Of a stretch of DNA of 20,861 nt, positions 15,507-20,615 are shown piece by piece. The notes under the pieces were generated by a model. That model was not told the origin of the DNA, did no database searches, and saw only the letters and a list, made by a program, of their open reading frames with translations. The stretch is from the IMG/VR virus record IMGVR_UViG_3300042691_011296, positions 1 through 20,861 of that record, one strand, 5' to 3'. The DNA is from a virus. Within the stretch, counting starts at the first letter, position 1. Every line of letters starts with the position of its first letter. The position numbers and the translations under genes are program-made.

Positions 15507-16121
15507 CTATTTTTTAATAGCGTTAATAATGCTAGGTAAACTTACATATGAATATTCTTTATGAATTATCGTTGCTATACCTTTTGATTTACCATTTCTT
15601 TGTTTAAGAATTTTAGCAAATTGTTTTTTAATATTCTTTACATCTTTTTCAGTTAATTTAGATTGTGGATGTGAGTCACCTTTTAATACTTTTCTTTTCG
15701 AAAGAGTATCGGATGCTTGTTGTTGTTTTGGATAATCTTTTAAGTGTTTAGGATTAACACATTTTTTATTACCACAAGTATTTGTAATACATCCAGAAGG
15801 AAATTTTACTTTGTGAAGTATTGCTGAATAATTTTTTGGTAATAATTGATTACCATTATTGTCTATAATCCATCTTTTAGGATATAACCAGCAACCATCA
15901 GTTTGCTTAATTACACAATCATTAAATCTATCTTTAGCATTACCAAAGTATTTTTTTAAACCTTTGGAAACTTTCTTTTTAAAATCTTCCTTTTTATTTC
16001 TTTCTGCAATTTGTGTATTAGCTACTAATTTATTATGTGAACTTTTTATTTTTACATCACTCTTAATGGGTGAAGCTTCATCACTCCAATCATTATAATT
16101 TATTTTAAAACGTGTTGACAT
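15507..16121 (-). CDS. HNH endonuclease (free-standing homing type)
   Basis: A 204-residue protein. Residues ~68-130 hold an HNH domain of the phage 'GCW' kind: DGCWLYPKRW (75-84), a His at 103 in SAILHKVKF, then CITNTCGNKKCVNPKHL (111-127). His103, Asn123 and His126 are the probable active-site residues, and the cysteines are probable zinc ligands. It continues with GDSHPQSKLTEKDVKNIKKQ (148-167), the DNA-binding tail that often follows such HNH domains, and a C-terminal helix-turn-helix-like segment. The basic N-terminal 65 residues are not recognised. The start overlaps the ATPase gene end by 17 bases, so it is the last gene of the leftward operon. It may act as a homing endonuclease. A packaging-associated role is less likely because no terminase is nearby. 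Confidence 0.8.
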   Translation of the reverse strand: MSTRFKINYNDWSDEASPIKSDVKIKSSHNKLVANTQIAERNKKEDFKKKVSKGLKKYFGNAKDRFNDCVIKQTDGCWLYPKRWIIDNNGNQLLPKNYSAILHKVKFPSGCITNTCGNKKCVNPKHLKDYPKQQQASDTLSKRKVLKGDSHPQSKLTEKDVKNIKKQFAKILKQRNGKSKGIATIIHKEYSYVSLPSIINAIKK

Positions 16122-18025: not shown

Positions 18026-19183
18026 TTACCTACCTACATCTTTTAGGTATTTGTCTTTACAATCATTCCATGTCATACCAATTATGTTTGAATAGAATAA
18101 GGTCTCATCTTTTAATCTATTTTCAGTATGTAGGGTTGTATATCTTTTAATTGCTTTATCTTTCCACCAATTGATTGTGTATTCATCACCATCTGCAAAG
18201 TGTTTGTTTGTAATTAACTTATCTTCTGTAATTTTACCACAAAGATAATCATTACCATTCTGGTATATTGATGCAAAGTATACACCTCTCTTATATCCGT
18301 GATAGTATGAATTACCTTTAATACCACATTCTTTGAATATTAGATTGATTAGATTTTGTTTAGGTCCAGTTTTCAATTGTGATTTTTTATACTTTTCTGG
18401 ATATTTCTCTTTGATATAATCTTTCCAAATATTATAAATCCAATCGTCAGGTTTAATCTTTACTAACCCTGATGAATGTCCTAATCCTTTGAAATGAGGA
18501 ATACTATTATATTGACTACTCCCACCATATAGTGATGTGGTTTCTACTGCAATTAATGTATCGTTATATCTTTCAAACCATTCCTTTCTAAATACAGGAG
18601 ATGTAGTTAGTGCAGCAATCAATTTACCACCTACAAAATTAAACCCTAATGGTTGCGTTGGTACAATTGCAGTTCCAATACAGGTGTTGTTTAACTTACC
18701 ATCCTTAAACTTATTATCCCTACTCCAACCTATAAACTTATCTCTTACACCCAAACTAGATATGTCTGAACCTAATGCAATCACTCCTAACAATTTACCA
18801 CTTACTCTATCTTTGACAAAAGCTTTAATATTTCTACCTGGGTTTGCAGTAAACTCCATAGAACTAATCAACATCCTAACATCAGTCCATTTAGTAGTTT
18901 CGTCTGTAATCTCAACATATGGTTGCAAAGAATTGATTTCTGCAATAGTTAAGTCTTTGTCCATTATATCGGTAGGTCTCCATAGAGTATCAATGTATGA
19001 ATGATATACTGGTAATCTACTCATTGAATTATGTAAGTCATCATTAAACTCACCCCACTTTTTATAGAGTGTGCTTTCTTCAACTGACATGTTATGTAAT
19101 TGATTTAAGTTTTGAATAAGTAATTCTTTATTCTTATCAAAGTTAAATTCCTTTTCTATTATTTCTGTATCCCAAAATTTCAT
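18026..19183 (-). CDS. DUF4338 (DruA-like) protein
   Basis: A 385-residue protein. Residues ~129-235 match the core of DUF4338, the domain of Druantia anti-phage protein DruA: GKLLGVIALGSDISSLGVRD (129-148), KFIGWSR (149-155), NNTCIGTAIVPTQP (165-178), GKLIAALTTSPVF (186-198), FERYNDTLIAVETTSLYGGS (203-222), SQYNSIPHFKGLG (223-235). The family's usual sequence has 'G...F......RD..IGW', then an 'ILP' strand, then 'L.....R...DW...Y......ETF'. Here the 'ETF' position reads ETTSLYG, the variant I associate with phage-encoded members. The biochemical activity of the domain is not established. The gene is alone and leftward, facing away from the DUF6291 unit across a 207-base gap. Roles in phage replication, inter-phage competition or counter-defence are possible (inference). 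Confidence 0.72.
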   Translation of the reverse strand: MKFWDTEIIEKEFNFDKNKELLIQNLNQLHNMSVEESTLYKKWGEFNDDLHNSMSRLPVYHSYIDTLWRPTDIMDKDLTIAEINSLQPYVEITDETTKWTDVRMLISSMEFTANPGRNIKAFVKDRVSGKLLGVIALGSDISSLGVRDKFIGWSRDNKFKDGKLNNTCIGTAIVPTQPLGFNFVGGKLIAALTTSPVFRKEWFERYNDTLIAVETTSLYGGSSQYNSIPHFKGLGHSSGLVKIKPDDWIYNIWKDYIKEKYPEKYKKSQLKTGPKQNLINLIFKECGIKGNSYYHGYKRGVYFASIYQNGNDYLCGKITEDKLITNKHFADGDEYTINWWKDKAIKRYTTLHTENRLKDETLFYSNIIGMTWNDCKDKYLKDVGR

Positions 19184-19236: not shown

Positions 19237-19268
19237 TTTGGTGGTTTGAAAAAAGTTTCTTATATTTA
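19237..19268 (+). promoter_or_regulatory. Bacteroidota-type promoter for the structured leader
   Basis: TTTG (19237-19240), 20 bases, then TATATTTA (19261-19268), one mismatch from TAnnTTTG. The 20-base spacing is the same as in the promoter at 19841-19872. Transcription should begin around 19274-19277, just ahead of the first hairpin of the leader. Confidence 0.6.
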
Positions 19269-19274
19269 ATTATA

Positions 19275-19390
19275 TCAAACAAAAAACATATAGTGTTGGA
19301 TACTATATTAAAGATAACGGAAGAAATTCCAAAACACACCCCTGAGAATTATGAAATCCAACTTCATAGTTCAACGGGGTTTTTAATTTT
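19275..19390 (+). ncRNA. Structured leader/small RNA with a kissing-loop pair and terminator-like end
   Basis: Three hairpins follow the promoter. H1: ATATAGT (19288-19294) with ACTATAT (19302-19308), loop GTTGGAT. H2: GGAA with TTCC (19319-19330), loop GAAA, a GNRA tetraloop. H3: a lower stem ACCCC (19338-19342) with GGGGT (19376-19380), an internal loop, an upper 10-bp stem GAATTATGAA (19346-19355) with TTCATAGTTC (19363-19372), loop ATCCAAC (19356-19362), then TTTTTAATTTT running into the ATG at 19391. The 7-nt loops of H1 and H3 are exact reverse complements. H3 has the form of an intrinsic terminator. This could be a stand-alone small RNA or an attenuator of the DUF6291 gene. No known RNA family is recognised. 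Confidence 0.65.
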
Positions 19391-19855
19391 ATGAATACTA
19401 TTATTTACAAAACGCATTTTGAGTTAATGAATACATTGACAGATGCACAGGCAGGTTTACTGATTAAATCAATTGGAATATATTGTACAGGAGTAATGCC
19501 AACATTTAACGACCAATTAGTTCAGGGTATCTTTTTAGGTTTAAGACATGACTTTGATACACAGGCTGAAAACTATGAAAAGAAAGTTAAAGCAAATAGA
19601 GAAAATGGTAAGAGTGGTGGTAGACCAAAGAAACCCACAATAACCGAAGATAACCCACAAAACCCAATGGGTTATTTGGAAACCGAACAAACCCAACCTA
19701 ACCCACAAAACCTTAAAGATAAAGATAAAGATATAGAGAAAGATAAAGATATAGAGAAAGATATAGCTAATAGTACTGGTAGCATATTAACTAATAAAAT
19801 AGCTAGACAAGATAATCTTTCTGAAATACTTGATAATATATTTGGAAATGATTAA
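19391..19855 (+). CDS. DUF6291-like phage protein
   Basis: A 154-residue protein. Residues 1-70 (YKTHFELMNTLTDAQAGLLI, KSIGIYCTGVMPTFNDQLVQ, GIFLGLRHDFDTQAENYEKK) match DUF6291, small helical proteins common in phages and prophages of Bacteroidota and Firmicutes. These usually read 'F..YKSF...I..L..E...EL..AI..Y...G..P', then 'F..I...ID.N..RY'. The following ENGKSGGRPKKP (71-82) is the typical basic link. After it come Asn/Pro-rich segments and a Lys/Asp/Ile repeat (~108-125) coded by a tandem DNA repeat. Members often sit with replication initiation genes, so a replication role is plausible but unproven. The ATG lies directly after the T tract of the leader terminator with no room for a ribosome-binding leader between, which is unusual. 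Confidence 0.75.
   Translation: MNTIIYKTHFELMNTLTDAQAGLLIKSIGIYCTGVMPTFNDQLVQGIFLGLRHDFDTQAENYEKKVKANRENGKSGGRPKKPTITEDNPQNPMGYLETEQTQPNPQNLKDKDKDIEKDKDIEKDIANSTGSILTNKIARQDNLSEILDNIFGND
19721..19768 (+). repeat. 18-bp tandem repeat in the DUF6291 linker
   Basis: AAAGATAAAGATATAGAG occurs twice without mismatch (19721-19738 and 19739-19756), preceded by AAAGAT and followed by a partial unit. It encodes a KDKDIE repeat. As 18 is a multiple of three, copy-number change would alter linker length without breaking the frame. Confidence 0.85.
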
Positions 19856-19872
19856 TAAATTAACTATATTTG
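19841..19872 (+). promoter_or_regulatory. Bacteroidota-type promoter for second structured RNA
   Basis: TTTG (19841-19844), 20 bases, then TATATTTG (19865-19872), a perfect fit to TTTG-N20-TAnnTTTG. The -33 element lies inside the end of the DUF6291 gene. Transcription would begin about 19877-19880. Confidence 0.72.
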
Positions 19873-19877
19873 AAAGA

Positions 19878-20004
19878 TAATATGTTATTATAAAAGACAG
19901 GATTAAAAAATACTTCAACGCTATTCAGCATTACATTATGAAGTTCCTGTTCAACATATTATACAGAGCCGAAGTTTAGAGTGCCATCTTCTTCGGCTCT
20001 TTTT
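19878..20004 (+). ncRNA. Candidate small RNA of ~125 nt, ending in a terminator
   Basis: No gene fits 19856-20087. Downstream of the perfect promoter, ACAGGA (19897-19902) pairs with TCCTGT (19945-19950), and ACTTCA (19912-19917) pairs with TGAAGT (19939-19944), which lies flush against the first pairing, leaving a 9-base A-rich bulge on the 5' side. A small GCT/AGC hairpin is inside. Then comes the terminator at 19965-20004. The terminator's 16-nt loop holds TGCCATCTT (19982-19990), the exact reverse complement of AAGATGGCA at the start codons of the GIY-YIG gene (20085-20093) and of the AAA+ ATPase gene (minus strand, 17064-17056). A small RNA that pairs with these start sites is a reasonable hypothesis. 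Confidence 0.62.
19965..20004 (+). terminator. Strong Rho-independent terminator
   Basis: AGAGCCGAAG (19965-19974) pairs perfectly over 10 bp with CTTCGGCTCT (19991-20000), loop of 16 bases, followed by a T tract (20000-20004). It ends the candidate small RNA and the DUF6291 unit. Confidence 0.88.
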
Positions 20005-20087: not shown

Positions 20088-20615
20088 ATGGCAAATCAAA
20101 AACAATGTATAGATTGTGGTAAAGTAAAAGACACCACACAATTTAGCAAAAGAACTTCAAGCAAAGATGGTTTACAAAGTAAATGTAAACAATGTAATTC
20201 AAAAGACAATCATAAGTTTAGAACTGAAATCAATCCAGAACACCATGCAAAGTGGCAAACTAATAATTGGGATAGATTTATGAATTATATGAGAAAGTAT
20301 AGAAAGGCTGACAAGACTGGTATTATCTACGCAATCACAAACCCTGAAGGTGAGGTTTATATTGGAATGTCAGAAATGTTTTTGAAAGTTAGAATGATTG
20401 AACATAGAAAACATTATAGACAATACAAAGAAGGTAAACGAGAATCACTTCCAGGTCTGCACGATAGTTTTGACAAGTATGGTGTTATCAATCATAAATC
20501 AGAAATTATTTTAGAATTAGAAGGTATTGATAGAAAACAATTAGAACATATAGAAAGAAGTTTTATTGAAGCAGTAAAACAAACAGGCAAATCATTAAAT
20601 AAAAGAAGTTGGTAA
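20088..20615 (+). CDS. Zinc-ribbon/GIY-YIG endonuclease
   Basis: A 175-residue protein with two domains. Residues 7-36 form a zinc ribbon: CIDC (7-10) and CKQC (33-36), with a KDTTQFSKR segment between, the type found in front of phage homing nucleases. Residues ~76-165 are a GIY-YIG domain: TGIIYAITNPEGEVYIGMSE carries the GIY-like motif (78-81) and YIG (91-93), followed by KVRMIEHRKHY with the probable catalytic Arg (Arg102 or Arg107), and LEHIERSFIEAVK with the probable metal-binding Glu156. Such proteins nick or cut DNA and are usually free-standing homing endonucleases, here in a short operon. The start ATGGCAAAT follows an A-rich leader and contains the 9-base sequence complementary to the terminator loop upstream. 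Confidence 0.85.
   Translation: MANQKQCIDCGKVKDTTQFSKRTSSKDGLQSKCKQCNSKDNHKFRTEINPEHHAKWQTNNWDRFMNYMRKYRKADKTGIIYAITNPEGEVYIGMSEMFLKVRMIEHRKHYRQYKEGKRESLPGLHDSFDKYGVINHKSEIILELEGIDRKQLEHIERSFIEAVKQTGKSLNKRSW

Follow-up and report, generated by a model that had tools for sequence, protein, structure and literature searches.

Purine-type kissing-loop riboswitches use loop–loop pairing within a leader, upstream of a terminator, and the phi29 pRNA is a phage RNA that carries two mutually complementary loops in one molecule. The natural target of pT181 attenuation is a plasmid replication gene. In attenuators of the pT181 type, kissing hairpins govern termination in the leader and changes in the loops yield orthogonal pairs (PMC3753616). 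The CI RNA of phage P4 comes from the leader of the replication operon and pairs with complementary leader sequences, which leads to premature termination before the replication genes (PMC4825925). The c4 RNA of phages P1 and P7, whose complementary parts probably lie in loops, sets heteroimmunity (PMC12197685).

Here we describe a leader element in a complete IMG/VR virus record of 20,861 nt (hereafter the window), in which the loops of two hairpins, H1 and H3, are complementary to each other. As with P4 CI, the RNA lies upstream of replication-type genes wherever the gene family is recognisable, the DUF6291 and RFTD types described below being presumed members. Unlike P4 CI, one contiguous RNA of ~110 nt carries both partners in hairpin loops, one of them the loop of a terminator-like hairpin; in contrast to P4 CI immunity, a search of 10 records, possibly fragments, gave no phage integrase. 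Attenuation in pT181 relies on a separate antisense RNA to switch the structure, whereas here both loops lie in one sense transcript and no alternative antiterminator helix is seen. The c4 RNA blocks translation of ant, and the element has no Rfam relation to it. The phi29 pRNA has a packaging role and, unlike this element, no link to a terminator or a replication gene. Neither kissing loop of the purine riboswitches is a terminator loop, whereas the H3 loop is, and the element has no Rfam match to them. More generally, Rfam 15 gave zero matches at the gathering score; with E relaxed to 10, all matches were at chance level and none covered the element. This agrees with an earlier, sequence-only reading of the window, which had recognised no known RNA family in the three hairpins. 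No matching phage RNA was found in the open-access literature either; as far as these two sources show, the phage RNA family is undescribed.

Architecture of the leader

The sequence-only reading had drawn three hairpins and a T tract reaching the ATG at 19391, with two 7-nt loops that are exact reverse complements, and the sequence agrees on each point (Table 1). The strand from 19270 to 19395 has a folding energy of -27.2 kcal/mol (z = -3.7), a value that none of 200 shuffles equalled. In nested folding of the window sequence, two weak extra pairs shrink the H1 loop to a UGG triloop. Prefix folding has H1 and H2 already formed ahead of H3, with competing structure absent. H3 consists of an ACCCC/GGGGT base, a 3x3 internal loop and a 10-bp upper stem; with this base and the 5–6 U that follow, both conserved, it has the G+C-rich hairpin and U-run of an intrinsic terminator. 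A simple terminator scan of the window did not return H3, presumably because of the internal loop.

Table 1. Features of the leader and its surroundings in the window.
Feature	Position	Strand	Description
Probable HNH / endonuclease VII-like or homing endonuclease gene	15507-16121	-	near replication region
DruA-like protein	18026-19183	-	PF14236, 73.9 bits
Bacteroidota-type promoter	19237-19268	+	TTTG (-33), 20 nt, TATATTTA (-7); predicted start ~19274-19276
H1 hairpin	19288-19308	+	ATATAGT-GTTGGAT-ACTATAT; 7-bp stem; 7-nt loop GTTGGAT at 19295-19301
H1-H2 linker	19309-19318	+	A-rich, conserved, TAAAGATAAC
H2 hairpin	19319-19330	+	GGAA-GAAA-TTCC
H3 hairpin, terminator-like	19338-19380	+	7-nt loop ATCCAAC at 19356-19362
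Kissing (loop-loop) helix	19295-19301 with 19356-19362	+	Watson-Crick covariation in relatives
U-tract	19380-19390	+	TTTTTAATTTT; between H3 and ATG at 19391; presumed intrinsic termination site
DUF6291 gene	19391-19855	+	154 aa; first gene downstream; Pfam PF19808, 57.6 bits
RNA-B, structured RNA	19841-20004	+	~130 nt; own promoter and terminator; z = -5.0
RNA-B promoter box	19841-19872	+	TTTG-N20-TATATTTG
RNA-B terminator	19966-19999 plus T-run	+
Probable HNH / endonuclease VII-like or homing endonuclease gene	20088-20612	+	near replication region

The Bacteroidota promoter consensus is TTTG/TAnnTTTG (PMC7366714). A TTTG-N20-TATATT box ends 10–14 nt upstream of the element in 16 of the 18 loci checked, and the element always stands directly upstream of a gene in the same slot. 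The gap from H3 to the ATG is ~10–20 nt, which leaves no space for a second promoter. One relative (L034) lacks the standard box immediately 5' of the element; what precedes the element there is an additional hairpin (GAGATT...AATCTC) and, possibly, an earlier -7 box (TATCTTTG). Repeats resembling ATCAATGAGTTACAT, which could be iterons or operator sites, occur 100–300 nt 5' of the ATG in L001 and L004, and none was seen in the window. An antisense promoter opposite the linker is doubtful: inspection shows a -7-like TATCTTTR there, and the aligned sequences, again by inspection, have no conserved -33 TTTG at the proper spacing.

Relatives of the element

A search with the DUF6291 protein returned four loci (L001–L004), all with the element. 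Pattern scans, protein scans and a covariance model (R1) brought the set to ~25 IMG/VR records holding 15 distinct element sequences. R1 finds a single strong copy per record; its weaker matches either fall on the opposite strand of that hairpin or lie close to noise level. Element-bearing phages are known solely as IMG/VR contigs: cultured phages and wider DNA searches gave no convincing element. The single match in genome_contigs (L095) was discarded as a chance match, with mismatched loops and neither H1 nor H2, and matches from two further pattern scans were mostly chance matches in coding sequence. As to phage kinship, the portal protein of the window shares 33% identity with its counterpart in Nonlabens phages P12024S/L, which were isolated on a marine flavobacterium; P12024S has no R1 match.

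The two loops covary

Independent variation of the two loops, which the sequence-only reading had itself named as grounds for abandoning the pairing, was sought and not found: in each of the 15 distinct sequences the two loops are perfect reverse complements. In a 14-sequence alignment, all 98 loop–loop cells are Watson–Crick, with no G-U, and six of the seven kissing pairs have changed on both sides, so that pairing is kept by compensatory change. The kissing helix is 100% paired in these 14 distinct relatives versus 32–43% after sliding by 1–3 columns, and its covariation score is 0.87 versus 0.08–0.16 in the slid controls, with the proviso that the aligned sequences are mutually related and shuffles are not to be taken as probabilities. 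The loop match is thus beyond chance.

The same holds out of sample. Four distinct members (L136, L114, L124 and L158) were found after R1 had been built, with both loops treated as unpaired in the model, and all four have perfectly matched loops; in L158 these are an unrelated 6-nt pair, GGTCAG/CTGACC, and the nested fold leaves both loops open. A chance origin of the complementarity is ruled out by the covariation together with these members, and comparison of sequences strongly supports the kissing-loop pairing as real. The 7-nt pairs (H1/H3) are GTTGGAT/ATCCAAC, GTAGGAT/ATCCTAC, GTAGGAA/TTCCTAC, GTAGGCT/AGCCTAC, GTGAGAT/ATCTCAC, ATCTCAC/GTGAGAT and ATCGCAC/GTGCGAT. L001, whose protein is 96% identical to that of the window, has GTGAGAT/ATCTCAC, a joint change of both loops; between L001 and L020, L034 and L136 the H1 and H3 loops are swapped. 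The window and L029 differ in 3 of 111 alignment columns, two of which form a compensatory kissing pair.

The stems are also maintained. H1 is 100% paired in the 14 sequences, with changes on both sides in four of its seven pairs, and six of the ten upper-stem pairs of H3 have changed likewise. A GAAA-capped hairpin between the loops had been part of the sequence-only description; it is present in the window, and the cap is no general trait, relatives having GCAA-TTAA-TTGC or GAAC-TTAATT-GTTC at H2 with variable tetraloop identity. After H3, GGTTTTT is conserved among relatives. Read on the + strand, the stems of H1, H2 and H3 contain G-U pairs, which would be A-C mismatches on the opposite strand; selection has therefore acted on the + strand RNA. 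Diversity peaks in the kissing loops (pi 0.44) and is lowest of all regions in the H1–H2 linker and the H3 base (pi 0.09), with linkers at 0.09–0.15. The variability of the loops hints at specificity types, and the linker from H1 to H3, ~28–30 nt in all aligned sequences, suits an intramolecular fold. A protein-coding reading was rejected, as the 3' arm of H3 in the window holds an in-frame TAG and the paired changes fit RNA, not codons; the frame happens to be open in L001. A short ORF within H3 (ATGAAATCC...) is unconserved and stops two codons in in L020.

Gene context and cassette behaviour

The sequence-only reading had proposed a new type of control for the DUF6291 gene class. This proved too narrow: genes of several unrelated types follow the leader, and not every DUF6291 gene has it. 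The first downstream gene is DUF6291 in the window, L001–L004 and L096, a Lin1244_N / replication initiation protein (phrog_2562) in L020 and a replisome organizer (phrog_6251) in L019. Lin1244_N genes also follow in L048 and L158 and, with a score just above the cut-off, in L114; the gene in L136 has a sub-threshold DUF1376 / primosomal match, and that of L022, L029 and L034 encodes an MA(Q/K)RFTD protein without a convincing family match. These families are unrelated to one another and mostly of replication type. Judging from its equivalents in the relatives, DUF6291, which is not named in any open-access paper found, is probably a replication-module protein, and we would assign the RFTD-type protein to replication as well. 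Beyond the first gene comes a unidirectional run that includes an endonuclease and, by a weak match, a possible sigma factor, and reaches the terminase.

Some close relatives have promoter and gene without the element, which marks it as a cassette. In the DUF6291 loci L006–L008 the promoter box is followed directly by the gene, and in L141 the same box leads straight to the ATG of a MAKRFTD gene whose product is 96% identical to the query protein. In one protein scan, 5 of 17 loci had a strong R1 match and 12 had none, a few of the latter holding only short sequence 5' of the gene. The window element is identical to that of L002–L004 (protein identity 81%), unlike that of L001 (96%). Element identity is thus at odds with protein identity, which indicates that leader and gene have recombined (a mosaic).

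Downstream of the same gene slot lies a second structured RNA, RNA-B, conserved in 14 other loci; many, not all, of the element-bearing records have a match to it. Its conserved core is GCTATTCAGCATTACA; it belongs to no Rfam family, and no loop match to the kissing-loop element was seen. Two further observations concern neighbouring genes of the window. A phage-encoded DruA-like protein, named for a component of the Druantia anti-phage system, adjoins the leader in divergent orientation, and two probable endonuclease genes are located near the replication region (Table 1).

Discussion

The reading that we favour, with about even confidence, is a kissing-loop-clamped attenuator leader of a replication gene that releases an RNA of ~110 nt. 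On this view the element leads a phage replication operon from a promoter-proximal position. Transcription would begin near 19275, H1, H2 and H3 would fold as they emerge, and the H1 loop would then pair with the H3 loop. H3 and the U-tract would halt part of the RNA polymerases just 5' of the ATG and free a compact RNA with its 5' hairpin locked to the 3' terminator, and read-through would produce the replication-gene mRNA. By tuning or timing the folding of H3, the loop–loop clamp may set termination, and the whole may be an attenuator cassette suited to stand ahead of different replication genes. From the arrangement of these parts we infer termination at the U-tract, an influence of the kiss on termination and a possible relieving signal. 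An antiterminator helix was neither seen in prefix folding of the window nor conserved in the alignment, so this would not be a classic two-state attenuator; with no competing structure in prefix folding, the kiss or a factor bound to the conserved linkers, rather than the usual alternative helix, would exert control. The downstream genes are unrelated, which makes autoregulation by their products unlikely. The kiss may act for or against termination, and within or between molecules.

The last point bears on trans-acting copy or superinfection control, a possible but doubtful reading in which the released RNA would find other leaders as they are being made and pair with their H1 or H3 loop. 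Termination would then rise with genome copy number, and phages of different loop types would not sense one another, as with plasmid incompatibility groups or heteroimmunity groups of phages. The loops are the most variable part relative to the linkers, yet perfectly matched without G-U and swappable between H1 and H3, and P4 CI RNA, the pT181 attenuator and P1/P7 c4 RNA provide precedents; a purely intramolecular clamp does not obviously need hypervariable loops, which hints at action between molecules. However, linkers of constant length and conserved sequence point to an intramolecular fold, no antisense promoter was seen to be conserved, a helix can diversify by compensatory drift alone, and the failure to find an integrase in the 10 records makes classic lysogenic immunity unlikely. 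A bolder and still more tentative version has the leader RNA as both sensor and target: copies would kiss each other or nascent leaders, phage copy number would throttle transcription of the replication gene, and loop types would be mutually blind co-infection groups.

A stand-alone small RNA with host or phage targets or a protein partner, sharing its promoter with the replication gene only incidentally, would fit several features: the element has a promoter and a terminator of its own, another RNA ending in a terminator lies nearby, and the conserved linkers could serve as a binding site. We regard this as unlikely: the element invariably stands directly 5' of a gene occupying the same slot, too close for another promoter to fit between, and the 13 loci checked, of which several are partial records, showed no further hairpin with the same loops, on which ground a third partner RNA was also rejected. 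It is still less probable that the element controls leader stability or translation, the kiss shielding the 5' end or shaping ribosome entry and H3 being no working terminator. The end of H3 near the ATG and a compact fold at the mRNA 5' end would be in keeping with such a role, but a conserved U-tract directly follows the G-rich arm and the same genes occur without the element. Hardly credible is a packaging-type RNA like phi29 pRNA that oligomerises via both loops; two complementary loops in one RNA could in principle permit rings or dimers, but there is no Rfam match, the element sits at a replication gene with a terminator as its 3' end, and element-free relatives exist.

The covariation evidence for this tertiary loop–loop contact is clean, and one of the two loops engaged in it caps a terminator-like hairpin. 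The finding suggests that replication genes are under a compact form of RNA-based control, mixed and matched by phages with replication proteins from several unrelated families. With the loop types, nature supplies a series of matched pairs on which models of RNA copy control in cis and in trans could be tested directly.
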